From Thelephora terrestris (taxonomy: Eukaryota > Basidiomycota > Agaricomycetes > Thelephorales > Thelephoraceae), in contig WIUZ02000016.1 of the NCBI GenBank assembly GCA_015956445.1, positions 248,001-312,000 on the forward strand: a stretch of DNA of 64,000 nt, written 5' to 3'. The translations under genes and the position numbers were made by a program. Numbering within the stretch: the stretch's first letter is position 1; each line of letters opens with the position of its first letter. Positions 10,668 through 32,307 of the stretch are shown here, piece after piece. The notes below the pieces were generated by a model. That model had not been told where the DNA came from, ran no database searches, and saw nothing but the letters and a program-made list of their open reading frames with translations.

Positions 10668-13663
10668 ATGGCAGGTCTGGAAGAATTGGTAGAGAATCGG
10701 TGAGCCCGCGTACTTTTTCCCGTCGTGTATACGAGTCAGCTGGTGACTCTCTCTTCATCTGTAGCCGAACGGGCTCGGTCGAAGGTTCGGAATACGAGTT
10801 TCGTATCGAGGAAGCTTCGATTCGCAGCAAAACCACGGAACGAACACGGTACGTTGTTTCACAGACTCATCTTTCTGCCTGCTGAGAATTCTTCTGGTTG
10901 ATGTAGCCCAAGAGTCAGGTGGCAGACACCTCCCCCATCTCCGTCCACCAAATACAGACAGACGGAGAACGAGAGTTTCCGGCGGAATACCCCGCCACAA
11001 GCAGAGAGGTGCGTTTCTTCGCGCCTCATTGAATCGTTGCTAACACGCTAGATTGATAATTTGCTCACTGATATAGCCAAGGAGCCAGGCTCCAGACCCC
11101 GTATCTCTCACCTCAGCTCTCCCACACAGTATACAATGAGAGGATGCACGAGAGTTGGCGGTATGTTACCTCGCCACAGGCAGAAAGGCGCATTTCTTTG
11201 CGCCTCGTTTAATTGTTGCTAATACCCTGGTGTAGCCAGGGCGGACCGCCCGCTCAAGAGGACTATCGAGCCCAGTTCTACGATAAATACTGGAAGGTAG
11301 CCGAAGAACACGATAAGAAATTCTTGAAGAAATATGACCTGGACTTCAATACAACCTTGATATTTGTGGGTCCACCGTGAGGCCTTGATGAGCATGTGCT
11401 TACTAGAACGATAGGCTGGCCTGTTGTCCGCCGTTACTTCCGCATTTATCATACAGGTTAACTCTCAACTCCAGCCCAACTCAGGCGTTGAGACAACTGC
11501 GCTCCTCCGTTCATTTATTCACAAGATCGACAACACCATGTTCGGAAACGTTTCCACCCCTCCACAATGGGGTGGCCCCTCGTGGGCGACGGTTCTGGCC
11601 CAGATCTTCCTCGTCATCAGCCTTGCCGCTTCACTCTTCTCTGCCTTCCTGGCGGTGCTCGGCAAGCAATGGTTGAGCTGTTACGAGTCGATCGACCTGC
11701 GAGAGACGGTCATCGAACGTGGGCAGAATCGACAGCAAAAGCTGGACGGCCTTGTCACGTGGCGCTTCCATCGCGTGATGGAGTCCCTACCGCTGATGCT
11801 GCAAGTTGCGCTGTTCTTCCTCGGTTATGCCGTTCCCTTGTCGCTCATGGATAACAGCACCATGATCTCCTTCGTTGCCCTTGGCCTGACGTCGTTTGGT
11901 GTTCTCCTCCATTTTTCTGTAGTCATCGCTGGGGCAGTCTTCAAGAACTGTCCGTACCAAACATCCGCATCGTATCTGCTCCGCCACTTGAGGCCGAAAT
12001 CCCCAAGCATAGTACATTCTCTCGAAGTGAGCAACAAATTGGCCGTCACTCCACCCAACCGTAGCATCACAATGGTGGAGCCGGAACGAGTAGATTTGCA
12101 GTGCGTTTCATGGATTCTCTGGACATCACCGGACAAAACTCTCCACCTCTCAACCTTATTATACCTGGCATCAATATCAACGCTCGACGGAGTCGACCCC
12201 ACCCTCGTTCTGAATTGCTTCTACATCTTCGCCAGCTGCACCAGTCTCCGCGATCAAAGGGTGGCGATCATGCAGGGGTCGGAACAGTTGGCAGCGGTGT
12301 CCGCCAAGTGTCTCTCCCGTTGTTGGGAGCATCATGTCTCCACCACGAATCCCCGGATTTCACGTGTCCTTGAAGATCTCCGCCGACGGTACACCAGGGT
12401 TTTTCCTATCAATACCGATTTTGGGGGACTTCCGTTCGGTGCTATGATAGTGAGGATCCATAGTTTGTCCCATCAAGTCAGGAATATCTGGAAGAGCAAC
12501 TCCGAGCCGGCCCTTCAGGCATACACTGGCAGTCCGTCATGGCCCATTAGATACTCACGGCAACTGCTCGAGGATGCCCAGGAAGGATATCGAATGACGC
12601 AGAATAAAAAGGTACCACGTCGGATCCTCTGGTCTGCGCTCCGTTCCTTGTCTCTAGATCCCCCCGATTCAGCGTTCGACGTTGCTCACTACCTGATGGT
12701 TATTGCAATTGACCTTGACTTGGATATCTTAACGATCGTGGCCTTGGACGCAAGGTAGGTTTCAAATTCATGTGCTGTCCGCATTTTTGTCCCGGAGCCA
12801 GTGGATGTGTGGAGCAAGTCTCGAGCTTGATCACTCGGAAGCTTGAAACCATGGTCGGAGCCAACGATCCGGCCCTAATCTTTTCCAAGCGCAAGGCCAT
12901 AAGCGCTTTAGTTCCATATGCGGTCTTCTTGGATCGCGGTGCGCAGCAAGGGATGGTTAATTTGATCTCACTCGCTGCCGCAGCTTCAAAATCTGAAGAG
13001 TTCATATGGCGTCACGTCGAGGCGAACATCGGTGTATTGTTCGACGAACCAAGTCCTCCATCCCTAAATTTGATAATTGTACTCGCGTCATCTGTCATGC
13101 GGTGGGATCAATTGAACGGTAGAAGGGAAGTCACCAGGTGGGCAGAGGCAGTCTCGGCAGTCCCGTATACGGAGCAGGTTGGCTCGAGTGTTGCCGAGGT
13201 TCTATTGCGCATTGTGGCCAATGACTCTCTACGAGAACACATCCCAGCCAATGCTTGGGCGTTGTTGAAAAACCGGCCAACTCTCCGACTCGGGTGTGAG
13301 GCACAATCCATGGGAACTGTGGGTGACATTGTCCGCCACGTCCGAGGCCTTGGAGACATCGAAATCCTCAAATCGTACTTCCTCCTCGTCTGGTCGGAGT
13401 GGGATTTTCCTCACCCTTCCGGTCAAGATGAGATGGAGGTCTCAATCCACCAGGACTTTGGCGGACCAGACATGAAAAGCCACCGGCAAGAACTCATCGA
13501 GCGGTTGGATCATATCCTTGGGCAGTTGGATCGGGAGCTGGAACACTTCCACCGGCATGAGAAGCTGGTTCATGAGCAGCAAATTTTGTGGGCAAAAGAG
13601 GATTACGGAGAGCTGAGGAAGGCACTGCTGGAAATGCACACAAGAAGCGAAGAAAGCCCATAA
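10668..13663 (+). CDS. DUF6535 membrane protein, array gene A
   Basis: Seven exons (10668-10699, 10765-10848, 10907-11008, 11077-11187, 11236-11365, 11415-12754, 12802-13663) sum to 2,661 nt (886 aa) with no stop. Exons 1-4 encode a charged, disordered N-terminus. Exon 5 has the family start FYDKYWKVAEEHDKKFLKKY. Exon 6 opens with AGLLSAVTSAFII (first membrane segment) and carries three more (around VLAQIFLVISLAASLFSAFL, LPLMLQVALFFLGY and FGVLLHFSVVIAGAVF) with the conserved GKQWLSCYE loop and CPYQT. The remaining ~600 residues look soluble and helical, ending in repeated LGDIEILKSYFLLVWSEW-type blocks. Exons 3 and 4 are a tandem duplicate, and the intron after exon 4 begins GC instead of GT. 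DUF6535 has no known function; a membrane location is inferred. Confidence 0.85.
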
Positions 13664-15264
13664 TTGTATGTCTCCCAGTTGATACCTTCCGACATATAGG
13701 TGTGCTAATTCTCTCAAACATGTAGAATTCCACTCGACTTCGCTCCCCTATGTCTTGGAGTCCGTGATCCCGGATTTGGTGGCCTGCTTCCTTGAGCTTG
13801 TTGCCTTCGTGTGTCCGAATTGTAATGCGAGGGGGCGTGCTCAGCGTTTGCGACCCCTTTATCATCATCCTCTATTAGCTGCTGATGCAGATCGTAGCAT
13901 GGACCGCGTGTTTCGTACCGCACTCCTAGACTAGCGAGGGTAAACCTTGCTCCCGTTGTGTTCGTAATCCCGCCAACAACTATGCGGTCCGTGTGTTGCA
14001 CATCAATTGTGAGGCTGTCGGGCCCTCGTCTCTCAGGGTTCCGTTGTCCACTGAGAGGCATTTCGCTACTTCCGGACTACCTTTAGTACTGAAGGGCATC
14101 ATTTCCACAGCGATTCGAGGAGCATCGTGGGGGGCCCTCGGGTCCTTCAACTCCAGACGCCAGGTAGCAGAGTCGAAGAATGAGAACCTTCTCGAAACGC
14201 TTTGTTCTTCGTCCCGACAAAATTGGATGACAAAGACGACGAAGGGTCCATCAATGGGAGAACAGCACGATTCTGTGGCGGTTCCTGTTCGACGATCGTG
14301 GTATAAGTCATTTGCCACGATCTTGAACAACATATGGCCGTCCGAACACAAGAAGACGGATGACAAACCCCGTCCGAGTGGCTAAGTATCACAGCCAGCA
14401 GAGCTAAGGACCTTCGGACAAGAACGCCTGGAACTGAGACTGAAATATAAGCAGCTGAGGAACTCGCAGAATCTTCTGGACGCATGTCATTTGATACTCA
14501 CGCACGCGCCGTAGAACAGCCTATAGTGATGATGGGGTGATGAGATGGGCAAGAATTTGGACTTGGGTAGAATTGAAGCGGCGCTTATTCCACGCTCTCG
14601 CTCACTGCCAACGCCCCCACTCCCACACTTGCTAATTGTCAGTCAAGATTGTCAGCCTGGCGATAAGTCAGCCACGTGCAGATTGGGTAGTTCGTAACTT
14701 ACGACAGTGCCGCTCAGGTCGGGATGATAAGCAAACGTTTTCCCACAATCGGACGTACTGTGGCGCCAGCTCTTTTGCCTAGTCTGTATCCATCCAACCC
14801 GGTGGTTTTTCCCCTCCGAAAAACTCTCCGGCGCTGCGCCAAGAATGAGTACCCCGGACCTAGGACATCCCTCGCAAGGTAAGGGTTCTGATCGAGTCCA
14901 GATCCTGGACCAGATCACGGACTTCCTCCGACGCTCGTGATTGACACCGCGCGCGATGAGTGGCTTTAAAGCGTGTTACCCAACCGGATTGATACTAGTG
15001 TACCATTTTTCCCTCTATATAGAGCCATGGAGTGGTCACCCTCAATCGGAGGTTTCGCTCCTCGCTCTTGGTCTCGATTCTAAGCTTCTGCTTCTGTTCA
15101 CGACCACTTCTCACTTCTCTCTACCGTTTGATCTTTCTTTTGCGACTCGACACCGCCGTACTCATCTTCGAACTCTTGGCCATCACGGACACTCAGTGGT
15201 CCAGCAGTCCACGGCCTTGTGTCTTATCTCCCTCTCTCAGTAAACCAAATCGATACCCTCCCCC
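13664..15264. other. Intergenic between array genes A and B
   Basis: About 1.6 kb with no supported gene. Open frames of 90-130 codons exist on both strands around 13980-14485 but have no start context, introns or family motifs I recognise. The last 250 bp before gene B has a TATA-like box and a pyrimidine-rich leader. Confidence 0.4.
15016..15021 (+). promoter_or_regulatory. TATA-like box of array gene B
   Basis: TATATA sits in the context CCCTCTATATAGAGCC, about 245 bp upstream of the ATG at 15265. A similar TTCTATATACAATGG lies at 27187-27200 in the unit that holds the truncated copy, so the box appears to travel with the duplicated unit. Confidence 0.4.
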
Positions 15265-18200
15265 ATGGCAGATCCAGATGAGATCGTGGAGACTCCGTAA
15301 GTCCTCGTACATTTTCATGGAGCACATCCGCTAATATTAGTTCGAATCCTTAGTAGAATACCTATTGGCGATGGTTCGAGACAGGACGATGAGGGGGATT
15401 TTATTGATCGCAACAACAATAAGCGAAAGGGGTTTGTCGCTCTGTCATTATATCACCGGCCAAAACTGAACGTCTCATTCTCTTATCAAGGAGGCGTCGG
15501 AATCCTAGGCCACAGGGTCCTGTTCATAGCCCTCTGCCGGTGTATGGTTATATTCCCTGTCATTTGCAAATGCCTAACTTTTTCTTTGATCCAAGTCAAG
15601 GTCCTGAAGAAAATCAAAACGAAAAGGATAATAAGGGACAAAAAACTCAACGAAAACCGAATGGGTAAATCTATCTCTTACCCGACTAAAATGTCGCTAA
15701 CAACCTTGCGCAGCAAAAAACAGAGCGGATCGCCAACTCAAGGAGAACATCAAGTTCGATTCTACGAGACCTATCACAGGGTGGCTGAAGAGTACGACAA
15801 GGACTTTCTCAAGAAGTACGGGGGGGATTTGGATACCACTCTGATCTTCGTAGGTTTAACGCGAAGTTTTGGTGGGTACGTTCTGATTAGGTGATAGGCT
15901 GGTCTATTTTCTGCCGTCACCTCCGCGTTCATAATCGAGGTCGACTCTAAACTTCAACCCGACCCGAGTGAAGAGACCGCTGCCCTACTCCGAGTGCTTA
16001 TCTACAAGATCGACAGCACCACCTTCGGGAGTGACGTTCCCACTCTCCCCCCGCCACGGAACGGGCCTTCGTCCGCAATGGTCCATGTCCAGGCCATCCT
16101 CTTCACAAGTCTTGCAGCTTCCCTCCTCTCCGCCTTGTTGGCAATGCTCGGCAAACAATGGTTGAGCCGATACGACTCGTCCGATGTGCGGGGATCGGCC
16201 ATCGCACGCAGCCGCAATCGACAGCGAAAGCTTGACGGCATTGACGCGTGGTATTTTGTCTACATGATGGAGTCGTTGCCGTTGATGCTGCAGGCTGCTC
16301 TGCTGCTACTCGGTTGTGCCCTTTCGCGGTATCTCTGGGAAACATCCTCCACTGTCGCGTCGGTTATGATCGGCGTCACCTCTTTTGGCCTCCTCTTCTA
16401 CCTTTCCATCGTCATCGCCGGGGCAATCTCCAAGAGCTGTCCGTATCAAACACCTGGGTCGCCTGCTCTCCGTTACATAGGGCAGAAACTCCCGGGCATG
16501 ATTCGCTCAATTGCCTCTTCTCTCAAAAAATCCTTCCTGGAGTCCACGGTTTTGGCCCTTGTCAGAAGGAGCCTAGAACGCTGTTCCTCCTACTGTATCC
16601 CCGGGGCCAACATCATATGCTTTGTGGGGAGTTTGGTTTTCACGATCCCCCTTGGACTTGCCATCGACGCCTTTAATCTCGGGCTCACTGCGGTCCGAGG
16701 ATCGGCCGCCCTTTTCGCAAAAGCTCACCACATTGTCCGTAAGACACGTCAACACTGGCAAGGAAACCCGCGAGAGACAGATCCTTCTCAAGTTCAAGAA
16801 AGGAAAGACCGAAAGAAAGCTTTGTCGGACTTGCGGTGCATTTCGTGGACGCTCCAGACCTACCTCGACAAAGATATCCGCCTCTCGACCGTCAAACACC
16901 TCGAAACAAAGACCGAGCTCAAGCACTTTGACCCCTCGCTCGTTGTAGATCCCTGCTTTGACGTTATGGTCAGCTGCATCAATGTCAGCGACCGCAAGGC
17001 GGCAACTGTGCAGGGGAAGGGTGAGCTCGCGGCTGTGTCTGCCTGGTGTTTCTTTCGCTCCCTCCATTATCTCCTAAAGAAAAAGGATCTAGAAGCGTTC
17101 GAAAGTATTCGGCAACGCTGCAACACCAATTCCACGTTCAACAGCAACAACGATTTCGGGAGTCTTCCATACTGTTACACGATGGCCAAGATTCAGACCC
17201 TGATTGGCCACCAGTGGAGGCATCAAAGTATCCAGTGGGAAGACTACAAACCATCCGCCCCGGAATACATTACATTCGCACGGAACATGGTCAAGGCTGC
17301 CCAGGTAGAGTACCAACAGACAGAACACCAACAGACAGAGTATCGAAAGGCTCCAAAGGTTCCCCGTTGTATCCTCCGCTTTGCCTTGCACTCCCTATCT
17401 CAGGATTGTCTGCCTCCAACATCCGTTGTTGCCGACTGCCTGACGATCGTCGCCATCGACCTGGGTTGCGATGTTTTGCATATCCTTGCTTTGGAAGAGA
17501 GGTGTGTTCCCATCGTATGAGTATCCGCATTTCTCTGACCGAGACTCAAGTACACGAGTGGAGCGAGTCTCAAGCCTGATAATCAAGACGCTCGAATCAC
17601 TCCTCCAAGCTGCCGACCCTTTCATGATCCTCTCGAAGCATAAGGCCATCTGCACGATAGTTCCCTTTGCAGTCTCTCTGGAGCAACATGGACAGCAGGG
17701 GATGGTTGACTTGGCCTTACGTGCTGTTGAGGCCTCACGTTCTCCAGAATCGATCTGGCGCAAAGTTTACGGATACATCGCCAAGTTGTTCGAAAGGCCA
17801 AACCCTTCTTCTATATATCGGGTTATCGCACTCACAGCACACTACTGGGGTTGGGATTCCTGGGGCAATGCTGAAATTGCGGTAGTCAAGTGGGCAACAG
17901 CCATCTTGGAGGTCCCATATACGGAGGAGACGTGCCAGAGTGCGGTTGCTACCGCGTTGCAGGTCGTTCACGATGGATCTCTGCGACCCCATATCCCCGT
18001 CGAAGTTTGGGCGTGGCTCAAGAAACAACCAATTTTACCACCCCAGTCCGAAGGACGAACGAAGGGACCAAACCCAGACGTCATTAGTCACATTCGAGGT
18101 CTTGGAGATATCGAGATTCTCAAGTCATACCTCGTTCTTCTTTGGTCGGAGTGGAAGCCTCCTTCTGACGAAGAAATTGATGCGACGGGGATAGCAATTC

Positions 18201-18523
18201 GAAAGGACTTTTGCGGAACCCGGATGGAGCAACACCGGAAAGATCTCGTACGACGGTTGGACCACGTCCTCGGAGAGTTGGATCGAGGGTGGGGATATTT
18301 CTCACAACACACTACGCGTTATCCTACTCAGGATGAAGTTGAAGTGGCCAAGGTACGGTACGGAAAGCTGAAGGATGTGTTGCTAGAGGTGGAGAGGGAA
18401 GGGACGATGAAAGCTCTAACCCGTACGTCTCTCGTGTTGACCCTTTTCGGACAACAAGCTGATTTCCGTGGACCCTGTGTAGGATACCACTCGACCTGTG
18501 CTCTGTCTCTCCCGTGTCCGTAA
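15265..18523 (+). CDS. DUF6535 membrane protein, array gene B
   Basis: Exon 1 (15265-15296, 32 nt, MADPDEIVETP) has the same length and phase as exon 1 of A and E. Small exons follow. The DUF6535 start FYETYHRVAEEYDKDFLKKY ends at 15849, the large exon runs 15898-17501, and the last exon runs 17551-18523. It has four membrane segments like A, plus GKQWLSRYD and CPYQT. An insert after the fourth adds SLVFTIPLGLAIDAF, another hydrophobic stretch. A short duplicated Gln-Thr-Glu motif (YQQTEHQQTEY) lies near 17310-17345. Exon 3 (15491-15539) is one base out of phase with exon 4 in my model, whereas gene E splices cleanly at the same place. Either this copy uses another junction or its 5' part is frameshifted. 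The exact C-terminus after 18420 is uncertain. Confidence 0.75.
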
Positions 18524-19690
18524 TCTGGCGTTTGGAGAGGTTGTTAGTTCTTCCTGACGTTCGTGTCCCACTAATCGTCTCGTTTCGTCCGCTGACACAT
18601 CCCCTTTTTACAAACAATTGCAGTATTTCTCGGATTCACCTCATCACAATTATCGGTGAGAGATAGGATCGCGTAATTTTGCAGATTTGTTTGGTGTTGT
18701 ACTATTAGTTCTATCCGCAGACCGTCATGGGGATCATGATGACCCAACGGTTTTATGTCCACGACAGAGCGGCAGATTTTTACAGCTTCGTGTCTCTACC
18801 CTTTGGCCGGTCATATATACGTTGAACGCCCGAGCACGCCGGACTCAGCTGTTGTCCCTTGGTTGCCCGTTCTTAATCCCACGGAGCGTCCTATCTTTCA
18901 AGCCAAGAGCATGGTGTGAGTAGATGGAATTTATGGATGAAGCATGACTGTGAGGTCGGAAACTAGGCTGGTAAACGTCGTAGGCTTGCTCGCGCCGCGG
19001 TCCGGCTCGAGACTTGACTCATTCTTGATCGTGCAAGGAATGGAAGGCCGCTAAGCGTATATTGCGGAAACTCAATATTGCTACCGTACTCATTCCACCG
19101 TCGCCGCTTCTCGATTAATTCCGACCTTCAGCTTCATTCACGAGAGATTGACGTTTTGACAGCGAGTTGAAGCCTGTTTCGCCTCTTGGCGGAGAGTCAA
19201 GTCAGCTTTCATAACGTAGTATACTTTCTGATATGCCACCAGTCGCCACCATGGGCTCTGAGAAAGAGAAAACGAATGGGTGATCTGTTGACGTCCTTCA
19301 GGAATCTCAGGTTGCAAACGGGAAGACTCGCTCAGGGTTGTGTTTGCTCAAATCGCGGCGACAAGAATCCTGAGCGGATTAAGAACTTGGGCACGACTCT
19401 GCCTTCCTTCAACAGCCTGATGATTCGTAATCAAACTGTGGCGGGGCGCCAATCCCTCCTTTCGCCTCATATCCCTCCCCCGGTAAACTGGGTTTATACC
19501 GCCCATGATGGAGCATCTAGAAGAGGTCCCGGAGATACGGTTGGTTCTCTGATATGCTTTGCAGTCAGCTTGGCTTATGTTTGGGGCCGTAGTCAACCAG
19601 ATAGAATGGAGGATCCGATACGCCCGGCGGTCGAAGAACAGTCGACACGCATTGGAAGGAACGTAAGGATGCGGTACGGTCCCTTGTACA
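18524..19690. other. Intergenic between array genes B and C
   Basis: The first part (18524-18780) resembles the region after genes D and E (GTGCTCTGTCTCTCCCGTGT-like start, then a 'gacgatagga' block), so it belongs to the duplicated unit. A 175-codon open frame at 19186-19713 has no recognisable motif, overlaps gene C's first exon in another frame and is not called. Confidence 0.4.
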
Positions 19691-22504
19691 ATGACTGCTT
19701 TACGGGAGGCTGAAACTGGGTCCAGGAGACGCAAGGATTATAGAATCGCGGACGACTCGGAAAGCGACTCTTCATCAAGGTATGGTTGACGCCCTCTAAC
19801 CTGAAACTCCTCATCTCTGGTTACAGCGAGGATCAAGGAGATTTGAGCGTAGGCGGGAAAGGGGGACTGAAGAGACAAGCGACTGGCGGGTGAGCTTTCC
19901 TATTCAAATCGAGACATCGCCCGCGCTAATCCCTTGCATAGAAGGGGAGGGGGGCCGAGGTCGCCACAAGAGGTTCTTCGCACCAGATTCTACAAAAATT
20001 ACCACAAAGTCGCCGAGGAGTACGATAAGAAGTTCGTGAAGAGACACAGCGAGGACCTAAATGTGACAGCAATATTTGTGAGTCTCGCATGTTGCTCAAG
20101 TGCACACGCTGACGTGGGTATAAGGCTGGATTTTTGTCCGTTGTAATTTCTGTGTTCACCGCCGCCGCGCAAGTCCACTCCGAGTTTTCGCGGAATGCTC
20201 TGTGGCGGAGCGGTCCTTCCCAAACGGTTCTCGAGTTTCAAGTAATCCTCTTCACCAGCCTCGCCCTTTCCCTTTTCGCCGCTTTCATTGCAGTGCTCGG
20301 CAGCCGGTGGTTGACTCGATATGCATCAGTAGACTCCCGAGGGTCCATCATCGAGCGCAGCCTGAATCGGCAACGGAAGCTCGACGGTGTTTCCGACTGG
20401 TATTTCGACCACGTGATGGGGCTTCCAACGCTAATGCCATGGTCCATGCCGCGCTACTGCTGCTCGGTTCTGCCCTTTCCGACTACCTTTCAAAGGTCGA
20501 GTCGACTGCGGCGCAAGTCGTCTCCGATGCAACCACATTCGGTGTTCTATTCTACCTCTTCATTGTCGTTGCCGGTGCAGTTTCCACGAGCTGCCCATAT
20601 CAGACCCCCGGCGCTTACATCATCCGTCGCATCTTCCAAATCCCTGGCCGGCTTCATTCAGCCCTCTCCGCTTGCGTTCAAAGATCCGCGTGCCGTCATC
20701 TCCTCTTCTCGGTGTGGGATGACTTGAAAGAAACCTACCTGCGAGGCGACACACCCCCCGGCATCGAGAACGCCTACCTCATCGCTGCACTCTCAGGCAC
20801 CTTCCTTCTGCCCAATTACGTCCTCATGGACGCCTATCGCTTCTTGCAATTCATGGCTAGGCCGCTCACCCATTCTGTCCAGCGGGTGTGCCTCTTGTCA
20901 TGGCAGGGATCGGAACAGGAAATGGCTGCGCTGGACCTACGCTGCATCTCGTGGACGCTTCGGACATCGCTCCATACCCCTGCCCGTCTGTTGGCCCTGA
21001 ACTACCTTGCAGAAACAGCATTGGTCAACTTTGATCCCTCCCTTTTTGAAGACTGCCTTGACGTCCTCATCGGTTGCATCAACGTCACCAACGGCAAGGT
21101 AACAGTCGCTCGAGGATCGGAGCAGCTCGCGACGTTGTCTGCCCTGTGTTGCCTCCACGTACTTTCCCACCTCACAGCTGTAGATCCTAGGGTTGAAGAT
21201 CTCCGCCAACGCTACGCTAGCATTTTCCCACCGGAGGCAAATTTTGATGATCTCCCATTCTCTCACGCCCTCGGCGCAGTCCACAACGTATTCTATCAAC
21301 CGTGCAAGTCGCGTGTAGTATTCCCAACTCGTATAGATCATATATCTCTCATTACATGGCGATCAAAGCAGCTCCAGCGGATCCAATGGAAGGACTACAC
21401 TCCACCAATTGATGAACAAATCAAAGTTGCTCATGCCCTTTCAAAGATTATCTTGTTCGAGAACCGGAGGAGAGGCAAGGTGCCCCGCTGGCTCCTCCGC
21501 TTTACATTTCATTCGCTGTCCCAAGACCCCCTGCCACCCACTTCAGTCATCGTTAATTGCCTGTCAATAATTGCAGTTGACCTAGGCTGTCACATCAAGA
21601 GCCCCACAACTTTGAACGAAAGGCGTGTTTTGCATGTTATTGGTGTTCAATTTTCTGACTAAGAATTAGTGTGCAACTGGATGAGGTTTCTCGCCTTATA
21701 TCTCAGAAACTCGAGACCATCATCAAACCCTACGATACCCAGTTTTATGAAGGCAAGGCTATCAGCGCACTCCTCCTATATGCGGCCCACCCGGGGCAGC
21801 ATGGGAGGAATTTGAAACTTGACACATTGTTGCGCGCTACGAGAGCCTCCAGGTGGACGATGTGGGATCGCGTCGTCCCTGGGTTTTTCAACGCAGCAAG
21901 TCCTCTGGCCATCGTGCTTGCATCGCCACATTTGGATTGGTTCGACCTACCCTCGCTAAACCGTGAAGACTTAGTTAGTCAGTGGGTAGCGGCGGCTTCA
22001 GGGGTCACATATTCAGAAGAGGTAGCTTGGAGTGTGGTCGATGTACTCTCGCACATTGCGTGCTTTCCCTCCCTACGGTCACTTATCCCCGTTGGCATTT
22101 GGGCATGGTTGAAGAAGCGACCGTCCCTTCCACCAAAATCTCTGGGAAGGTCGATGGGAATGATGAACGAGGATACCGCTCGCTGCGTATGGAGACTCGG
22201 AGACTTCGAAATCCTGAAGTCGTATCTACTTGTCGTCTGGTCCGAGTGGGATCCCCCTGCGCCTCGTGACTTTTATACAACGTGCATATCGATCATCAGG
22301 ACAGATTTTCGCGGACGCGGAATGGGACACCACCGGGAAGATCTTATCGATCGGCTGGACCAAATTCTGGAACAGTTGGATCGAGGGTTGAATCACCTCC
22401 GACAGCAAAAACCATATTATACCGAAAGCGACTTTCGAGAGGCAAAGAAACAATACGGAGGACTCCGGCGGGTCGTGATGGAGATGGACAGAGAAGCGTT
22501 GTGA
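19691..22504 (+). pseudogene. DUF6535 array gene C, frameshifted
   Basis: Exons 19691-19779, 19827-19889 and 19942-20077 splice in frame and end in the family motif RFYKNYHKVAEEYDKKF. Exon 4 starts at 20125. Two lesions follow. The segment between the first membrane helix and the second (about 25 residues, including the KID(N/S)T(T/M)FG motif of the other copies) is missing around 20165-20215. Near 20420-20455 the sequence between codons matching VME and LLG is 5 nt longer than in gene B, which shifts the frame inside the third helix. After that the frame is open to 22504 with the usual C-terminal half. The last intron starts GC (AAAG|GCGTG, 21623). Unless a small unrecognised intron restores the frame, this copy cannot make a full protein; a sequencing error is the other explanation. 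Confidence 0.7.
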
Positions 22505-23808
22505 ACTTTCACTGGTGCGCCTCCCAGGATGACCAACCTCTCGGTCTACTAACCACCTTGTCGCATCTACCTACAGAACCTAACCAGTCTCAAAGGCCAA
22601 GGGTCTACAAGTCACCGTTGGAAATTGCCCCTTCGTACCGGTCGACAACGGGTGGAAATCAGGTTCGACCTGTTCCTGGATTGGACGCCCTGGTGCTTCC
22701 CGGCCGGGTCGCGGCCACCCTAAACCACCGCTTCCGCCTCCAACAGCTCGTTTTTCATCCACATTTCTCGGTCCATCAATCGTTGCCTCCGGATCCGACA
22801 CTCTTACTTCAATTTTTCTTTTTCTTTGCCACAACCGCGAACGATGTAGCGAGTCCAAGTTTGTAGAGTTCGCCATTCGCTTAGGTCATTGAACCCCCGT
22901 CACGCTCCCAATGCTTTGCGCATGTCCTCACCATCTATTTCCACTACCAGCTTGATTATCCCCTGACCTCAGTAGCTTATAACATGTGGTCCTTTTGTTC
23001 ATCCTACGCACGATGCAGCATGCAATTGCTTCGGCATCCGGCCTTCATAAACTCCCCTTCCTGAAAGCGGAGTTGAATACGACATATCGAGCTCGCCTCC
23101 CGACAAGGCCCCGAGGTTCTCACCCTCAGTTCTGACCTCCTTCAAAGTCTTGGATGGCGGGAGGGTGAAGCTCCTCAACCGAATTGGAAAGCCCAATCTT
23201 AACCACGACAACCTGGAGTCAACTATCAAGTTTTCATAGAAAATGCGGAAAGGCAGAGACACCTTGACTCATCCACTGGTGTTACCCGCGGTCACACGCA
23301 ACAGAGATTGCGAAAGAAATCTCCTGGGACCACACCTCTGTCGTTACCGACTCTGGCGATGGTACCGGTCTTGCGTAAAACGCGAGAATCTCGAGTCCGA
23401 CCAACGTGCGCCCTCGCCCTTGTTCCAATAACTACTAAGATACACCATGGGGACGGTGTTAAGCCACAGATTCATATACATGATTAGGAGTAGCAGAAAA
23501 CGTGTGGATACTCCGCAAAGGAAGGGAACATGGTTTGGGAACCGATTTGACCACTTCTTACCAAATTTGTATAGTTAAAAAAGTCCTAGTAGTCACTTGA
23601 AATACACTTTACCCAGGTACCTATCCCGCTGGTTCGGCGGGATAGCTGATGTAAACTTAAAACTGGACGATTTATGCCGGTATCGGTGGGTCTCCTGCGA
23701 GGACGGTACCTCAGACCAGGACCTGCAACTCGTATCGGTTTCACACGTGACTCGAAGGTTGCCGGTCCCAACATGTCTCTCAGTGAACATAATCGATATC
23801 CTCCCCAC
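22505..23808. other. Intergenic between array genes C and D
   Basis: No gene is supported. The part 23005-23110 is a copy of the dispersed repeat seen at 10450-10560. The leader just before gene D (CTCTCAGTGAACATAATCGA) matches the leaders of B and E (CTCTCAG(T/C)(A/G)AACCAAA), which marks a conserved 5' UTR. Confidence 0.4.
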
Positions 23809-26792
23809 ATGAATGGTCCAGGCGAGATCGTAGTGGATCCACGAGCACTCAGACCCCCCCATAGTTCACATCGACCGATTCCAGTTCGGCCATCCAGTAG
23901 AACACGCGTTGGCGACGACTCGGGACAGGAAGATGGGCCAGATTTGATTCGTAAGCCAAAGAGGCAGGTTGCACTGCACTCGTGTCTCTCAGCCAACTAA
24001 ATGTCTGATTCCTAGGTCAAGGAACCGCCGGAGCTCTAGTAGACAACATGGCACACCGCAGAGCTTCCCATTGCCGTATGGTTCTATCCCTGCTGCTGAG
24101 GTGCAACCCTCTCACCCGAACTTTAAACGCAGCCAGGATCCTGGAGAGAGACGAAGCGAACATGAGGATGAGGGACAAAACAGCCAACAGCAAGCGGACG
24201 TGTACGTCTCTCTCGCCCTCAACCAGACTCTCCTCAATTACCCCTCACAGCCAGATATCAGCCGCACTGCCAGTTCAAAAAGACTGTCAAGCTCTATTCT
24301 ACGATAAATACCATGAAATGGCTAAAGGGTACGACGAAGACTTCGTCAAGAAATATGGGGGGGATTTGGACACGACTTTGATCTTCGTGGGTTTCACATA
24401 AGGTTTTAACGACCACATGTTGATTAGGGTATCAGGCTGGTCTGTTTTCAGCTGTTGCCTCCGCGTTTATCATCGACGTAGACTCCCAGCTTCAGCCCAA
24501 CACGGGTGCCGAAACGGCCGCCCTTCTCCGGGTCCTTATTTACAAGATCGACAACACCACTTTCGGAAATGATGTTCCCGCTGTTCCACAATGGAACGGG
24601 CCTCCTCGTGCGATGGTCCATGTCCAAGCCATTCTCTTCGCAAGCCTTTCCGCTTCCCTCCTCGCCGCCCTCCTGGCAATGCTCGGAAAGCAATGGTTGA
24701 ACCGTTACGACTCGTCCGACATGCGCAGATCAGCCGTCGAACGCGACCAGAACCGACAGCGAAAACTTGACGGCATTACCGCGTGGTATTTTGACTACGT
24801 GATGGAGTCATTGCCGGTGATGCTGCAGGCTGCTCTGTTGCTTCTCGGCTGTGCCCTTTCCCGGTACCTCTGGGAAGTCTCCACCATTGTTGCATCCGTC
24901 GTGGTTGGCGTCACCTCGTTTGGTGTCCTCTTCTACCTATTCATTGTCATCGCTGGAGTGGCCTCTGAGAGCTGCCCATATCAGACACCTGCATCCCTTG
25001 TCCTTCGATACCTAAAGGGACCCTTCGAGAAGTCCGGTGCTATGGCCGTCATCAATGTTGCCAAATATTATCGTTTCCCCCCGTGGTTCGGGTTCAACAT
25101 CTTATGCTTATTGGTGATCTTCATCATCGTGGTCCCTCTTGCATTTGCCTTTGATGTCCTTCTTTTCACGGGAGCCATGGTCCGAAAGTTGGGTGCAAGA
25201 GCCCACCATCTCGCTGAAGTTCGTAGGGCCTATCATTATTTGGGCGAGGCACATGACACCCCAGAGCAGAGGCATGACCAGCAAACGACCGTGTCGGACC
25301 TGCGGTGCATTTCGTGGACCCTGCAGACATCTCTGGACAAAGATATTCGTCTATTAGCCGTTGAACACCTCGAAACAAAGACAGAGCTCCCCCACTTCAA
25401 CCCCACCCTCGTTGTATCTTCCTGTTTCGACGTCCTGACCGGTTGCCTTAGTATGAGCGGTCAGGAAGTGGCATTTGTGCAGGGGAAAGAGCAGCTTGGG
25501 ATAGCGTCTGCCAGATGTTTCCTCCGCTCCTTTCACCATCTCTTAGTCACGAATGAGGCTTCGAGTGCCCTCGCAGATCTTCGCCAACGTTACAACAGGG
25601 TTTTTTCCCTAGACCCCAATAGCATGGGCCTTCTACTCCATCATGCAACGACCAAGATCCACGCCTTGGTCAGCCAGGATCCGAACCCCCCCAAAGTCCG
25701 ATGGGATAACTACAGGCCACCCAGGCAGGAACACATCGCATTCACACGGCACATGGTTGAGGCTGCCAAGTTAGGGTATCAACAACGACATCGAAAGGTG
25801 CCTCGTTGGATCCTTCGCTTTGCACTGCACTCCCTCTCACTGGACCCTCCGGATTCAGTTGTTGCTGATTGCCTGACGATCGCCGCTATCGACCTGGGTT
25901 GTCAAGTTTCGAACATCTCGGCCCCGAAAGAGAGGTACGTTCACATCATATGACTGTCCACGTTTCTAACCAGGACTCAAGTGCACGAGTGGAGCAACTC
26001 TCCAACCTAATAACCCGTACACTCAAAAGTATGATTGAAGCTGCCAATCCCGATTCGACCTTCTCGAAGCGCAAGACCATCAGTACAATACTTTTCTATG
26101 CACTCTCTCGGAGAGGTAGGCAGCAAGGGATGTTCGATGCAACTTTACGTGCTGTTGAGGCCTCGCCTTCTCAAAGGTTCATGTGGTACCAAGCCGGGCG
26201 ATACATTGCTACGATGGTAGAAGAACCAATACCCTCCTTTTGGTCTCTGGATGAGCTCATCAGGTGGGCAAGAGCGGTCCTAGTGATCCCATATACGGAG
26301 GAGATAGGCCGTAGTGTGGTTGGTGCAACTTTGCAGATTGCTTCTGAAGAATCTCTGCGGCCCTACATTCCCATCGGCGTTTGGGCGTGGTTGAAGGAAA
26401 GGCCGTCTCTCCCACCCGTGTGCCGGGGGCGGTCTTTGGGGACCGATCCAGACATTATTAGACATGTCCGGAGACTTGGAGATCTCGAAATTCTCAAATC
26501 ATACTTCCTTCTCGTTTGGTCCGAGTGGGAGCTTCCTTCTCGCGACAGTCTCGACATGATGAAGATCACAATCCGGGAGGACTTCTCTGGGACGAGGATG
26601 AGGCGGCATCGGGAGGATTTAGTACAACGGTTGGACCATGTCCTCGGGGAGTTACGTCGGGAACCGGGACACTTCAATAGACACATCGAAGGCCGTCTCT
26701 ATCTTCACATCGAGGATTGGATCAAAGAAACGAGGGGAGTGTATAGAGAGCTGAGGGACGTGTTGCTAGAGGTGGAAGGGAAGCGGCGATGA
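23809..26792 (+). CDS. DUF6535 membrane protein, array gene D
   Basis: The ATG at 23809 aligns with the starts of B and E through a shared leader. Exon 1 here runs on: the expected GT donor after GTGGATCC reads AC, and the frame stays open through the former intron into exon 2, ending near 23949. Later small exons lead to the motif FYDKYHEMAKGYDEDFVKKY (ending 24388). The large exon runs from about 24438 to 25934 with four membrane segments, GKQWLNRYD and CPYQT, plus a further hydrophobic stretch (LLVIFIIVVPLAFAF). The last exon is 25982-26792, with blocks such as LEILKSYFLLVWSEW. The large and last exons are intact and close to B and E. The function is unknown, and the details of the 5' exons are tentative. 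Confidence 0.8.
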
Positions 26793-27344
26793 AGGTCAAA
26801 CCTGTACGTATCTCACATTTACCCGTTTCAGCGGTTAAGCTGATTCCCGCGAACGTTGTGCAGGATGCTGCTTGACTTGTGCTCTGCCCTTCTTGTGTCC
26901 GTTATTTCCCACCTGGAGCGGTTGAGGTTCCTTCCCAACACTCGCGCGCCACCATAGACCCCGTCGTCTCGTCTCTTCACACTTCCCCGTTGTCCAAACG
27001 ATTCCGGTCTCGCTTAGACGATATCCTTCAAGCGTTCTCTGTGGAAGATAGGATGGCATGACGTGGCAACGTGTTTCTTCAGTACTTTGTTCTTATATCC
27101 TATTTGCCGACCATCATCTGGGTCGTGACCGATTAGCGTCCCCGTAAGTGGGACGAGGTTTCATCGATTTCTCGCTCCGTTCCTGTTCTATATACAATGG
27201 GTGTCTCTTGAGTTACTCTTCAACCAAGATGCACTCATGTCTACGACAGCAGCCACTCAGAGGCACCATGGTTATACTTCACGGTTACCTTTCCCCTTCT
27301 CAACGGGGGGGTGAAGCAGCAGATAAGAACCCATGCGGCTGAGG
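26793..27344. other. Intergenic after gene D
   Basis: No gene is seen. It resembles the downstream regions of B and E. Near 27187-27200 a TATA-like box stands where a promoter of the truncated copy would be expected. Confidence 0.4.
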
Positions 27345-27700
27345 CTGCAAGTGGAATGCGAACCTATACAGCGTGCAAATGTCCCCCGTTGGATCCCCCG
27401 CCTTCAGCATCCGTCGTCGCCGACTGCCTGACGATCGTCGCGATTGACCTAGGCTGTGATATTCTGGACATCATGACTTTGGATGAGAGGCGCGTTCGCA
27501 TCTAGTCGGCGCCTACATTTCTGACCCAGAACTAGTCCACGAGTGGGCGACTCCCAGGATTCATTGCTCAAGAGATAGAAATCATGGTCGGGAGCCGCGA
27601 TACGGATTCAATCTTTTCCTAGTGCAAGGCAATCAGTGCGTTAGTCCCGCACGCAACCTTCTTGGAGCGGGATGGGCAGCAACGTACGGATGTGTAGAAT
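27345..27700 (+). pseudogene. Truncated DUF6535 array copy
   Basis: Bases 27390-27500 encode the conserved end of the large exon (SVVADCLTIVAIDLGCDIL). They are followed by a degenerate intron: the donor reads CG and the acceptor 'gaactag' is kept. Last-exon similarity begins at about 27536 and breaks at a TAG near 27620 and again near 27697. Everything upstream (membrane exon, 5' exons) is gone and everything after ~27700 matches post-gene DNA of the other units. This is a clear relic of a sixth copy. Confidence 0.85.
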
Positions 27701-29217
27701 CTCACTCGATTCACTCATGCTTCACCCATATTTGTGATCCCGCATTCGGTGCGCTCCTCCCTCGGGTTTTAACAATGGTCCTCCTCTCTTAGTGCGCGAA
27801 TGGAAGTCAACGTGCCCCAACTTCTTCTCTCAATTCCCATCTTCGATAAATGGCTGATCGCAATATTTGCTGCGTGTCTTGTGTCACAGTCGTAAAATAA
27901 TAATGCTTCTTCTCCCCTTTGTATTCCTGCAGAGAAACATGCGGAATATATTTTGTGCGTTGAATTTAAGATAGTATGACCCTCGCCTCTCCGGGCTCCG
28001 TCGCTGTTGCTTTTTTGAGCACCCGTTTGTCCTGCAACTCCGGGACTGAGAAGCGGAGTCAGCGGCCTCGTTTTCTCTTCTGCCTTTTCCAATGATTTTG
28101 CTGAAGTTAATCACGCAAGCCGTGTACGCTACGAAAGGCGCATCGAGGGAGAATGGAGTGGCATCGCATTGTAAGTTCAACTCGCCTTAAAGCTCAGTGC
28201 TGAAAGCGATGGCAAGTTCTGAGAACTCGAGTAGATATGCGAAACTGAACCCGCTGGGGATATCAATGCGGCTGTATGGCGACACGGCGTTGTGTTGGCA
28301 AGGCACACACTGTGGGAGAAGAAGGGGTGGCTCGTCAGCCTAAGGAACGATGGAAAAGAAGAAGTCATGTTATAAAAAAGGAAATCGCGATGTTGCTGAT
28401 GGCCTCACTTGTTCATGGAACGGAACACAGCGGTTCGGACTCAACGATGAGTCTCGGTGGTGGGGCATCCTTCAGAGGCGTCGTCCCCCCAGGTATCGTC
28501 CCCTTCCGAATCGCGTCCTCCTCGCCTCTGAATTCGAGGCTGGATTCCAGCCCAGGGCATCCAGCCTTCTCCCGCGAAGCGTATCAGATCACTGCCACAG
28601 GGCCCGGTGTAACCGCAGCTGGCCCGAGTACGGTTGCAAATCGATCAACCCCCCACTCCACTGGTACACCCTACTAACTTACCCCCCACTGCACCGTCTT
28701 TCCTGGCCTTGACCCGCGATTTTCCGCGAGCCGCCAGAGCAGGATCCATACACCTGGACGTCGCTTTCCCAATACATATCCGACTTCACCAGCACGATCG
28801 ATCACCTCCTAGGAATCTCTTTTAACACCAGCAGAACACACACTGAAGCCACAGGTCACTGCAGAGGTTACTGCAGACCCACACTTGGAATTCTTAGCCT
28901 TTTCCCTACTCTCATTCGCCTGAAGAATGCTCGAATGCGAACGGACCCTACGGAAGTCTGCATCAAAATAGTCGGTCAATGGCTGGTCTTACAAGCGCGT
29001 CCCCAGCGCAATCCTCTCATTCCTCGTGCCACAGAGTTCCCTGCAACGTTGCCAATCTGCTTGGATGCTCTACGTACGTTCGGTCCGGGCCCCGACGCCA
29101 CAGCGCCAACAAGGACACGTGGCGGTCCATCAGCTTACGGCCAAGTTCTGTTTGCCTCGCGTTGGACACGCGTTCCTCTCTCAGCGAACCAAACCAATAC
29201 CTACATCCCACCCCCTC
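27701..29217. other. Intergenic before array gene E
   Basis: About 1.5 kb without a supported gene. Open frames around 28276-28712 (133 and 120 codons) lack introns, motifs or similarity to anything else in the window. The last ~55 bp carry the shared leader (CTCTCAGCGAACCAAACCAA). Confidence 0.4.
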
Positions 29218-32200
29218 ATGACTGGTCTAAACGGGGTCATAGAAGACCCGTGAGATCTCGTATCTCTCCATGGTGTACATTGGCTAATATCGGCTCGATC
29301 CTCCAGTAGAACGAGAATCGGTGGTGGTTCAGGGCAGGAAGATGAGCGGGATTTGGTTCATCGCAACAACGCCGAGCGAAACGGGTATGCTGCACTTCAT
29401 CTGTATCTCCCTGTTGACTGAGCGTCTGACTTTTCGTCTAAGGAATCGTCAGAATTCTAATAGGCCACAAACTCCTACGAACAACTCTCCATCGAAGTGT
29501 GTTTATATTCCCTCCACTGGCGCGCCCCAATAGCTGACCTTGAATTGCAGTCAAGTTCCTGGAGGAATGCGAAACGAGAATGAGGGCAGTAGACAAACCA
29601 CCCAACAAGGAGCGGTTGGGTAAGTTTCTCTTCTTCTCGACCAAGTTGTCACGAATCACATTGCGCAACCGGGAAAGAGGTGCACTGGCGAGTCAAGATG
29701 ACCATGAGGCTCGGTTTTACGATAAGTACCACAAGGTCTCTGAAGAGTACGACAAGGAATTCCTCAAGAGATATGATGTTGATCTCGACACCACGCTCAT
29801 CTTTGTATGTTCCACAAGAATCCTTCGTGAATATATACTGATTAGGGTAACAGGCCGGTCTATTCTCCACTGTCACCTCCGCGTTCATAATTGGTATCGA
29901 CTCTAAGCTTCAGCCCGACCCGGGTGACGAAACCGTTGCCCTTCTCCGCCTCCTTATCTATAAGATCAACAGTACCACCTTTGGGAGCGACGCTCCCACT
30001 CTCCCTCGCTGGAACGGACCTCCCCCCGTAATGGTCCACGTTCAAGCTATCCTCTTCGCAAGTCTCTTCGCTTCCCTCCTCGCTGCCTTCCTTGCGATGC
30101 TCGGCAAGCAGTGGTTAAACCGCTACGACTCGTCCGACATGCGGGGATCGGCCATCGAGCGCAGCCACAACCGACAGCGAAAACTTGACGGCATCGACAC
30201 GTGGTATTTCAACCATGTGATGGCGGCAGTGCCGTTGATGCTGCAGGCTGCTCTATTGCTGCTCGGTTGTGCCCTTTCACGGTACCTTTGGGGGGTCTCC
30301 ACCCTTGTCGCATTTGTTGTACTCGGTTTCACCTCGATTGGCGTCCTCTTCTATCTCTTCATCGTCGTCGCTGGGGCGATCTACGAGAACTGTCCATATC
30401 AGACACCCGGGTCTCGAGCTCTTCGCTACCTAGGGCAAAGAGTCCCAGACATAATCCGTTCCCCTTATTCTTTTGCTGCCGCCTTCAAAGTCATCTTCGG
30501 GAAGTCTCAAGTTAGGGCCCTCTTCACGAAGAGCGCAGAACGTTGTCGCTCGTGGTGGATCGGAGTCAAAATCATATACTTCTCAGGGATTTTGCTTTTT
30601 GCGGTCCCTTTTGCCTTTGCCTTCGATGTCTCGCTTCTCGGGCGAGATGGAGCCCAAAAATTGACTCTTCTTCTCCGTCGGACGCATGCCGCTACCGAGC
30701 AAGACGACCAACCGGATATGGCGGACCTGCGGTGCATCTCCTGGACACTACACACATCTCTTGACGATGATATCCATCTACTGACCTTCGAACACCTCGC
30801 AACAAAGATGGAGCTCACCACCTTCGACCCCACCCTCGTTGCGGACCCCTGCTTCGATGTTCTGAGGAGGTGCATAAGCATCAGTAATCGTAAAATGGCG
30901 ACTATGCGGGGGAAAGAGCTGCTTGCTACAGTGTCTGCCAGGTGTTTCCTCCGCTCCTTCCATGGTCTCCATGTCATGAATCCACCTCCGAGGGTCCTCG
31001 CAGATATTTGCCGACGTTACAAGAGGACTTTCCCCCGCGACCTCGATCACACCGGCCTTCCATTCAGTTCCACGATGACCATGAACAACTATTTGGCTGA
31101 TCAGGTCTGCGGCCTCGAACTTATCGACTTAAATGCCCACAGACCTTTCATCCAAGAACATATCATATACGCACACCATATGGTTCGAGCTGCCCAGGAG
31201 AAATATCGACAGACGCAAGGCGAAAAAGTACCCCGCTGGGCGCTCCGCTTTGCACTCCTTTCCCTATCCTTGTGTCCCCCATCTCCGGTATCCGTTGTTG
31301 CCGACTGCCTGGCAATTGTCGCTATCGACCTGGGTTGTGATGTTCTGGGCTTCGTGGCATTGAAGGAGGGGTGCGTTCACAATCTGATGAGTATTCACAT
31401 CTCTGACCAAGACTAAAGCGAACGACTGGAGCAAATCTCAAACCTCATAAAACAAACGCTCGAAACTATGATTGAAGCTCCGAATCCCTCGAAGTATAAG
31501 GCCATCAGCACTCTATTCCTCTATGCCGCCTCTCTAGGGCGAGATGGACAGCAAGGGATGTTTGACGTCACCTTGCGCGCTGTCGCGGCCTCACTCTCCC
31601 CTATGTGGAAGCATGCCGAGCCGTACATCGCTGCACTGTTCGAGGAATCAAGCCCCCCTTCGCTGAATTTGGTTATCGTGCTCATATCACCCCACATATT
31701 CGACATATCGTACTTTTCTGGCGGTCCTTCGGTAGCTAGGTGGGCAGATGCGGTCTTACAAGTCCCGTATACGGATGAGGTGGGTCGGAGTGTGGTTGAT
31801 GCAACGTTGCAGATTGCTTCCATTGTTTCCTTACGACGACACATTCGCATCGAAGTTTGGGCCTTGTTCAAGAAACGGCCGTCCCTCCCGCCAGTATGCA
31901 AGGGACGATCCATGGGAACCAATCAGGGCATTATTAGTCACATCCAAGGACTTAAAGATTTCGAAATTCTCAAGTCTTACTTTCTCCTTGTTTGGTCAGA
32001 GTGGGAATCTCCTTCCCCCTCTTCCCTTCAAGCGATGGAAATCTCAATCCGAGAGAACTTCTCTGGGACTGGATCGTGGCGGCAGCGGGAAGATTTGGTG
32101 CAAGGGTTGGATCACGTTCTTGGGGAGTTGGGTCGGGGGCCCGATTACTTAATGCGACATACCACGCGGGTTATCGATGCCCCCGGAATTCTTGCGAGAA

Positions 32201-32307
32201 AGAAAAAGTACAAAAAGCTGAAGGATGTGTTGCTGAAGGTGGAGAGGAAAGCGGTGATGGAGATTATCACTCGTACGTCTCTCAGGTTCATTGTGTTCGG
32301 AAGGTAA
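29218..32307 (+). CDS. DUF6535 membrane protein, array gene E
   Basis: Seven exons (29218-29249, 29307-29384, 29443-29496, 29551-29619, 29678-29804, 29854-31370, 31419-32307) sum to 2,766 nt (921 aa) in one frame. This is the cleanest model of the array and the template for the others. The N-terminus is polar. FYDKYHKVSEEYDKEFLKRY precedes AGLFSTVTSAF, the first membrane segment. Then come the paired helices around GKQWLNRYD, the helix before CPYQT, and a fifth hydrophobic stretch (IIYFSGILLFAVPFAFAF). The C-terminal ~480 residues are helical, ending with LKDFEILKSYFLLVWSEW and a charged tail. The acceptor of exon 5 has moved 8 nt compared with B because the ancestral AG is now AA. The function is unknown. 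Confidence 0.86.

Follow-up and report, generated by a model that had tools for sequence, protein, structure and literature searches.

Two-speed evolution in the DUF6535 proteins of Thelephora terrestris: a constrained membrane module and a C-terminal half positively selected in several paralogue groups

The DUF6535 proteins of Thelephora terrestris join a membrane module that is under purifying selection to a C-terminal half (C-half) that is positively selected in two groups of recent copies from other parts of the genome; the group to which the genes described here belong shows the same signal more weakly. These genes lie in the window, which is the whole stretch of 64,000 nucleotides analysed (contig WIUZ02000016.1, positions 248,001 to 312,000). 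The family is clustered and shows decay, its members have a two-part architecture, and the membrane part is the constant one. It is possible, with a chance somewhat below even, that this large birth-and-death family encodes two-part recognition proteins composed of a variable cytosolic sensor and a constant membrane output.

Between 11.1 and 32.3 kb of the window, five DUF6535 genes, four open and one broken, are arranged head to tail on one strand. This tandem array had been described in an earlier note on the sequence, as had the two relics, both of which match units of the array by blastn.

1..160, plus strand: relic of the end of exon 2 and the start of exon 3; blastn pieces of 31-76 nt, 71-85% to units 2 and 4; frames broken
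11144..13663, plus strand: unit 1, open, 782 aa; exons 11144-11160 (putative), 11236-11365, 11415-12754, 12802-13663
15661..18523, plus strand: unit 2, open, 921 aa; exons 15661-15849, 15898-17501, 17551-18523
19970..22504, plus strand: unit 3, broken; frame break, shortened first loop, GC donor
24162..26792, plus strand: unit 4, open, 844 aa; exons 24162-24386, 24436-25934, 25982-26792
24436..24975, plus strand: example of the constant part, the DUF6535 four-helix membrane module, unit 4 exon 2 residues 1-180 (Pfam match)
25297..25932, plus strand: example of the variable part, a predicted-helical module, unit 4 residues 288-499, starting with the motif DLRCISWTLQ
27390..27710, plus strand: relic of the end of exon 2 and the start of exon 3, with several stops (blastn)
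29580..32307, plus strand: unit 5, open, 876 aa; exons 29580-29804, 29854-31370, 31419-32307

The units are spaced 4.2-5.4 kb start to start, close to the 4-5 kb given earlier, and their proteins are 40-59% identical to one another. The name DUF6535 holds for all five, which exceed the gathering cut-off of PF20153 (IPR045338; 23.9 bits) with 99-119 bits and profile E-values of 3.8e-28 to 2e-34 in units 1, 2, 4 and 5, and with 50.1 bits and 6.6e-12 in unit 3. That Pfam model is limited to the membrane part (177 residues), however; neither the C-half with its CxxWxL motif nor the contrast in selection belongs to it. A common exon layout was found as claimed, units 1, 2, 4 and 5 sharing the same two GT-AG introns of 47-49 nt and having open frames, and splice signals suggest a further first exon and a 75-nt leader intron in unit 1. 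The claim of common flanking DNA fared less well: up to 1.5 kb on either side, units 2, 4 and 5 share only short stretches (66-344 nt at 66-79%), and none was found within that distance for units 1 and 3. In unit 3 the third membrane helix is interrupted by a frame break near 20435, the first loop is shortened in the alignment, the second intron has a GC splice donor, and the unspliced frame showed no in-frame ATG from the last stop up to exon 1. Of the two relics, the one near 27.4 kb retains 66-77% nucleotide identity to all five units over 107-321 nt. A tRNA scan of the window returned none.

Proteins of the window genes consist of the N-terminal four-helix membrane module (DUF6535) and a long C-half, predicted to be helical and about 550-680 residues long in the open units. 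The four-helix unit named earlier agrees with the DUF6535 match, but units 2, 4 and 5 carry a further long hydrophobic stretch past the four helices, a fifth segment that unit 1 lacks. Across the family, the membrane module is recognisable in 40/40 fetched regions and the exon-3 profile of the window matches 13/40. Profile-profile comparison matched the membrane part in 45/45 group pairs at a probability of at least 97.9%; C-half profiles matched at 73% or more in 21/45 pairs and at 0.08-4.8% in 17 pairs, those with groups C3 or 'single'. Three sequences with broken or split frames (L017, L037 and L052) are omitted from the full-length alignment. Counts of 41 members omit L038 (the same gene as L035), L047 and L052, as well as L017, L019, L020, L028, L033 and L037, in which the open stretch from the module start is shorter than 380 residues. 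A hydrophobic stretch between residues 190 and 360 is present in 18/41 and absent from the rest, which indicates that this region tolerates change. The CxxWxL motif is kept in the variable half of 26/41 members, against a shuffled expectation of 1.1, and the variable half is thus not free. Loop 2 contains more K+R than loop 1 in 41/41 members, and a glycosylation sequon occurs in loop 1 in 35 of the 41 and in loop 2 in 7; these loop features fit cytosolic protein ends and a topology in which the C-half would face the cytosol.

Structure prediction, as proposed earlier, gave a C-half predicted to be helical, but the AlphaFold models of unit 4 exon 2 and exon 3, built with five window sequences, reached a mean pLDDT of only 51 and 55. 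The low-confidence exon-2 model is almost wholly helical with one short strand pair. Fold searches with these models returned nothing at E<=0.001 (best E 0.36 and 0.021), and at such confidence no fold was drawn from them. The weak, non-significant fold matches included ARM/HEAT-type proteins. Profile searches of solved structures gave one non-significant match each (E 1.1 and 0.71). For the C-halves no Pfam family passed its cut-off, and SdpI, Cyt_bd_oxida_II and others that scored below it were rejected. The C-half would probably be a solenoid. Its prediction as almost all helical is shared with the ARM/HEAT alpha-solenoids, from which it differs in having no significant match to them by sequence or fold.

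At least 124 gene-like places of the DUF6535 family are present in the 40.6-Mb genome, 24 of them on the window's contig, and the array is part of this larger presence. In total 66/124 places have a second family place within 10 kb, whereas 500 random placements averaged 7.4 such places and never exceeded 22, which excludes a chance origin of the clustering. The clusters, the broken unit and the relics show the gene birth and loss in grouped copies that a diversifying recognition family would have. The earlier view of active duplication and decay holds as birth and death but not as very recent tandem duplication, since the mutual dS of units 2, 4 and 5 is 0.79-0.82 and the relative closest to unit 2 among those fetched, L026 (G000:C8:230777, minus strand; 77.5% over 547 aa), is inverted relative to it and about 33 kb away. 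Judged by a dS of about 0.8, the window units are old copies. In this one assembly the copies on C4 and C35 are almost the same (99.6%, with 4 mismatches and 18 gap openings) and look more like redundant contigs than alleles.

The two parts of the protein evolve each at its own speed. Pairwise dN/dS over 15 pairs is 0.08-0.32 in the membrane part and 0.24-0.99 in the C-half, the latter being higher in 15/15 pairs. Site models, run in our own implementation tested by simulation only, were applied to four DUF6535 paralogue groups, three of which are significant after gap trimming. In columns away from gaps, 2dlnL for M1a against M2a is 30.3 in C2, 17.3 in C5 and 14.3 in the window group. In these three groups the C-half alone gives p = 0.0015, 2.1e-05 and 0.0078, and the membrane part alone p = 1, 1 and 0.39. 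The membrane module of the window group has an M0 omega of 0.17, with no significant positive selection. Rows omitted are L022 from C2 and L029-L032 from C5; the window group, seven in number, excludes units 1 and 3 as well as remoter relatives. The membrane halves serve as negative controls together with null simulations under M1a (48 each, whole exon-2 columns, C2 and C5), whose maxima of 10.8 (C2) and 8.3 (C5) fall short of the observed values. The fourth group, C14, is weak (p = 0.017, in a run without gap trimming only). Part of the selected sites of the three groups map to residues 383-432 in the numbering of unit 4 exon 2, and all gaps are multiples of three in 3/3 pairs checked. The central guess of the earlier note, diversifying selection, is thereby supported, with C-half site models rejecting neutrality in three paralogue groups. 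The proposed sensor part thus shows positively selected sites next to a constrained putative output part, more weakly in the window group and C14 and not evidently in every pair.

A rather unlikely explanation of this contrast is relaxed constraint after duplication, in which the membrane module is needed, the C-half is a drifting linker or scaffold, and the selection signal is local noise or gene conversion. The C-half omega is well below 1 in most pairs and low in some (0.27 in L011/L012, 0.24 in L044/L045 and 0.29 in L021/unit 4), the averaged (M0) omega exceeds 1 only in the C-half of C5 (1.07) among the groups and halves tested, and the window group has only two sites above 0.9. The variable hydrophobic stretch at residues 190-360 points the same way. 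Gene conversion in the membrane part may add to the two-speed contrast, dS there being 0.087 against 0.256 in the pair L015/L018. Against mere relaxation, M2a outperforms an M1a model that already allows neutral sites, on the C-half alone and in three groups, the simulated nulls stay below the observed values in both simulated groups, and CxxWxL persists in the variable half.

In the proposed recognition family, the DUF6535 module would be the constant output part and the predicted-helical C-half the variable sensor on the cytosolic side. The ligand would be foreign or altered-self, for example a protein of a parasite, a host protein under guard or, once hyphae have fused, an allelic partner, and its binding to the variable half would change the state of the membrane helices, which might then open a pore or channel or seed a complex. 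We infer the topology, the binding of a ligand and recognition as the force behind the selection; a channel or pore output is speculative. As a long shot, the DUF6535 proteins could be the long-sought nonself-recognition factors of basidiomycetes, a class of membrane-anchored recognition receptors lacking a nucleotide-binding domain; their helical cytosolic half, specific to the allele, would control a constant four-helix membrane executor. The family supplies a concrete list of loci for comparison with mapped incompatibility loci, and the stretch around residues 383-432 of unit 4 exon 2 is where one could look first for specificity.

Clusters formed by birth and death together with diversifying selection are also typical of effector and toxin families, and the DUF6535 family clusters in this manner. 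A membrane-anchored effector or toxin, acting against competitors or in hybrid incompatibility with a target- or immunity-specific variable half, is nevertheless very improbable: at E<=1 the Pfam scans matched none of the known toxin or death domains, HeLo/HELL and gasdermin included, in the scanned exons of units 1, 2, 4 and 5 or in 8 ORFs of other subfamilies, and PADLOC gave no match for 10 proteins. By analogy, an N-terminal membrane-active part with a possibly controlling partner part may be shared with the HeLo/HELL and gasdermin-like fungal death executors (PMC10197012); the DUF6535 proteins differ in having several predicted spans rather than one releasable helix. A family of membrane transporters, channels or sensors that tracks changing environmental ligands or metabolites, with no role in self/nonself, is distinctly unlikely. 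Multi-pass membrane proteins in many copies would suit it, and a table row of PMC12387923, an isolated expression report, places a DUF6535 transcript among the strongly down-regulated genes of Flammulina; but the C-half is what varies, whereas changes in a substrate path should appear in the membrane part, and no Pfam transporter or channel match above cut-off was obtained in the scanned exons. That table row is all that was found on DUF6535 in the literature, and the family is unstudied.

Two NLR-like genes lie to the right of the array.

33467..35761, minus strand: NLR-like gene (STAND ATPase + TPR), right of the array; TPR_12 3.7e-11, nSTAND1 2.1e-4, below the Pfam cut-off
59230..61476, plus strand: second NLR-like gene, also STAND ATPase + TPR, 27 kb to the right of the array; TPR_12 1.1e-16, nSTAND1 3.4e-5 and NB-ARC 9.8e-5, both just under cut-off

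The second gene has at least 60 matching places in the genome (60 of 262 candidates scored). NLR-like genes do lie near the array, as stated earlier, but their excess near family places is modest, about two-fold over genome-wide chance. Among the matches listed, 26/124 family places are within 10 kb of a match in either NLR list, against 13.5 expected by genome rotation (10/400 as high) and 16.3 by within-contig rotation (22/400), figures that are rough because the NLR and F-box lists are incomplete, the TPR list includes TPR_12 matches of unchecked NLR status and some contig spans are estimated. Likewise among the matches listed, 13/124 places are near the TPR type alone (genome rotation 21/400, within-contig 153/400), 13/124 near NPHP3_N alone (75/400 and 15/400) and 9/124 near the F-box control (150/400 and 112/400). 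A specific pairing of the family with the TPR-type NLR was rejected, since the within-contig result is not significant. Taken as a whole, the earlier interpretation of the locus is partly supported.

Fungal NLR/STAND genes combine nSTAND, NACHT or NB-ARC domains with TPR or WD repeats, as in the het-e type. DUF6535 proteins differ from them in their membrane-spanning N-terminal module and in that no nucleotide-binding domain was found: at E<=1, neither exons 2 and 3 of units 1, 2, 4 and 5 nor the 8 other-subfamily ORFs matched NACHT, NB-ARC or nSTAND. They resemble them in forming a large family in the same genome and in having positively selected sites in the C-half, as in the repeat half of the window's TPR-STAND group. 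That group, although meant as a control, is itself positive in the same site test (p = 1.6e-05) and is therefore no negative control; it has six selected sites between residues 419 and 690, of which four lie within the TPR region.

In the window, taken from a genome of 40.6 Mb in 60 contigs (G000:C8:248001-312000), five homologous genes lie on the plus strand at 11.1-32.3 kb. They are accompanied by two relics, one at the left edge and one at about 27.4 kb, both matching the end of exon 2 and the start of exon 3; the five copies and two relics described in the earlier note are borne out. Units 1, 2, 4 and 5 are open through both of two introns, which lie at homologous places and are 47-49 nt long in the DUF6535 units, and unit 3 is a broken gene. 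The five units share 40-59% pairwise protein identity. Each contains four hydrophobic helices assigned to DUF6535 by Pfam, and the long C-terminal remainder (C-half) of the open units gave no Pfam match above the cut-off. Units 2, 4 and 5 possess an extra long hydrophobic stretch past the fourth helix, which is absent from unit 1; a hydrophobic stretch anywhere in residues 190-360 is found in 18 of 41 family proteins. Other features of the window are as follows:

484-3608, minus strand: long open frames, possibly (a guess) of a large transposon protein; the two frames scanned have no Pfam match at E <= 0.001
7363-7809, left of the array: DDE_3-type transposase fragment (Pfam E 2e-9)
44575-50593, minus strand: alpha-glucan-synthase-like exons (the single scanned exon matches Glyco_transf_5, E 5.4e-16), the others presumably of the same gene by their look
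50918-54553, plus strand: SAM domain exon, then protein kinase exon (Pfam), a gene we take to resemble an STE11-type MAP kinase kinase kinase

The alpha-glucan-synthase-like and SAM/kinase exons, the 47-49-nt introns and DUF6535 would all suit a mushroom-type basidiomycete. Short contigs near-identical to parts of large contigs are redundant or alternative, differing by indels and few substitutions in the one pair compared (L036 on C4 and L037 on C35; over 5,994 columns, 4 mismatches and 18 gap openings). Since such contigs carry many indels, lone frame breaks elsewhere can be assembly errors; unit 3, whose defects go beyond one frame break, is therefore a better candidate for real decay. The contig pairs C14/C41 in the exon-3 search and C12/C29 in the NPHP3_N search, whose matches scored equally, belong with the redundant or alternative contigs.

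A search of the genome for DUF6535 returned at least 128 matches (150 of 177 candidates scored), merged into at least 124 gene-like places, at least 24 on contig C8 and at least 21 on contig C3. Among the places listed, 66 of 124 have another within 10 kb, whereas 500 random placements averaged 7.4 and never exceeded 22; of the 44 adjacent pairs no more than 10 kb apart, 38 share a strand. Besides the window, 46 family regions were read. The membrane module was present in all 40 regions of the main set, and the window profiles of exon 3 and of the middle module, the variable stretch of exon 2 after the membrane part, matched 13 and 23 of them (15 and 27 of 48 when eight shorter duplicates are included). 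Profiles of ten subfamily groups (40 sequences) were also compared. The membrane part is homologous in all 45 group pairs; C-half profiles reach a probability of at least 73% in 21 pairs, over 141-596 aligned columns, 0.4-50% in 7 more, and 0.08-4.8% in the 17 involving subfamily C3 or 'single'. In 26 of 41 proteins the middle module opens with a CxxWxL motif, against 1.1 expected from shuffling. A middle-module query from another subfamily produced 40 matches: 33 have a listed DUF6535 place no more than 3 kb upstream in the same orientation, and the other 7, spread over 5 places, have none among those listed. With exon 3 as query there were 49 matches; 10 of 37 places tested have no same-strand upstream DUF6535 match among those listed, and at least some of these are interrupted by stops and resemble relics.

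The array itself is old, with dS of 0.79-0.82 between units 2, 4 and 5, and dS is 0.17 between unit 2 and L026, a gene in inverted orientation some 33 kb further left (C8:230777). A tree of 16 intact genes, four from the window, joins unit 2 with L026 (support 100) and unit 4 with L021, also on C8 (support 60), and separates unit 1 from the remaining units of the window (support 62). Turnover therefore owes no less to copying between distant places on the contig than to duplication of neighbours, and the active duplication proposed earlier stands in this form but not as very recent growth of the array.

The two parts of the proteins evolve at different speeds. In 15 pairs (Nei-Gojobori), dN/dS is 0.08-0.32 in the membrane part and 0.24-0.99 in exon 2 beyond it, higher in every pair, and reaches 5.9 in local windows between L015 and L018. 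Site models (M0, M1a, M2a, M7 and M8, in our own implementation) were applied to paralogue groups. On untrimmed alignments, M1a versus M2a gave p = 8.5e-11 for group C2 and 1.3e-08 for group C5 (3 sequences each) and 0.017 for group C14 (4 sequences). When only columns at least 4 codons from a gap were kept, p was 2.6e-07 for C2, 1.7e-04 for C5 and 7.9e-04 for the window group (units 2, 4, 5, L014, L021, L026 and L049; exons 2 and 3 joined). In null simulations, which covered C2 and C5 (48 each), the statistic peaked at 10.8 against 30.3 observed and at 8.3 against 17.3, exceeding 5.99 in 1 and 3 runs, respectively. Gap lengths were all multiples of three in the three pairs checked, so compensating frame errors are ruled out there as a cause of the signal.

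With the proteins split at residue 180, M0 omega for C2, C5 and the window group is 0.31, 0.10 and 0.17 in the membrane part and 0.81, 1.07 and 0.48 in the C-half. M1a versus M2a on each part alone gave p = 0.0015, 2.1e-05 and 0.0078 for the C-half, and 1, 1 and 0.39 for the membrane part. The diversifying selection suggested earlier is thus supported, in the C-half and less strongly for the window group. From sites above 0.9, 14 of C2 and 22 of C5 (not all of the latter) were mapped onto unit 4; exon 2 residues 383-432, a range drawn post hoc, hold 5 and 10 of these, respectively, and the window group's two sites are 415, inside this range, and 621.

Positively charged loops lie on the cytosolic side under the positive-inside rule. 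With loops set at fixed positions, all 41 proteins examined carry more K+R in loop 2, between helices 2 and 3 (mean 7.05), than in loop 1, between helices 1 and 2 (mean 1.73); an N-glycosylation sequon occurs in loop 1 of 35 proteins, as against 7 for loop 2. By the loop charges, both protein ends are predicted to be cytosolic, as long as the fifth hydrophobic stretch, where present, stops short of fully spanning the membrane. A conserved membrane module with a fast-evolving half is the pattern expected of a sensor-executor. In such a scheme a protein ligand that keeps changing would be met by the variable half, which is probably cytosolic and helical, and the membrane half would turn that encounter into one constant output. 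We tentatively assign the DUF6535 family to recognition in a broad sense, allorecognition or parasite recognition, with somewhat less than even confidence; its rivals are drift of the C-half under relaxed constraint, a role in transport or in sensing the environment, and an offensive one. DUF6535 forms a single row among the down-regulated genes listed for Flammulina (PMC12387923). No other open-access paper was found for DUF6535, PF20153 or IPR045338, nor was DUF6535 named in the listed titles or abstract starts on NLR expansion, somatic incompatibility, Agaricomycete expansion or incompatibility QTL, subscription papers and preprints lying outside the scope of both searches.

NLR-type genes abound in the genome, with at least 150 NPHP3_N matches (150 of 182 candidates scored) and at least 109 TPR-type places, merged from a TPR-STAND search and TPR_12 matches, not all of the latter being confirmed NLRs; by comparison, basidiomycetes average 83 NLRs per genome according to a review (PMC10197012). 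Two TPR-STAND genes of the window lie 1.2 and 27 kb beyond the right end of the array, as the earlier note had it in placing the array beside NLR-like genes. Among the matches listed, DUF6535-NLR proximity shows an approximately two-fold excess genome-wide, marginal under within-contig rotation (22 of 400 rotations as high), and contigs C45, C56 and C59 are well filled with NLRs and have no listed DUF6535 match, so proximity to NLR genes suggests background more than partnership. Contig C8 is rich in both expanded families among the matches listed, its DUF6535 places being joined by at least 19 TPR/NPHP3 places; the 150 F-box matches listed across the genome all lie on other contigs. The group formed by the TPR-STAND gene at 59230-61476 and L055-L057 shows positive selection (M1a versus M2a, p = 1.6e-05), with six sites above 0.9, all at residues 419-690.
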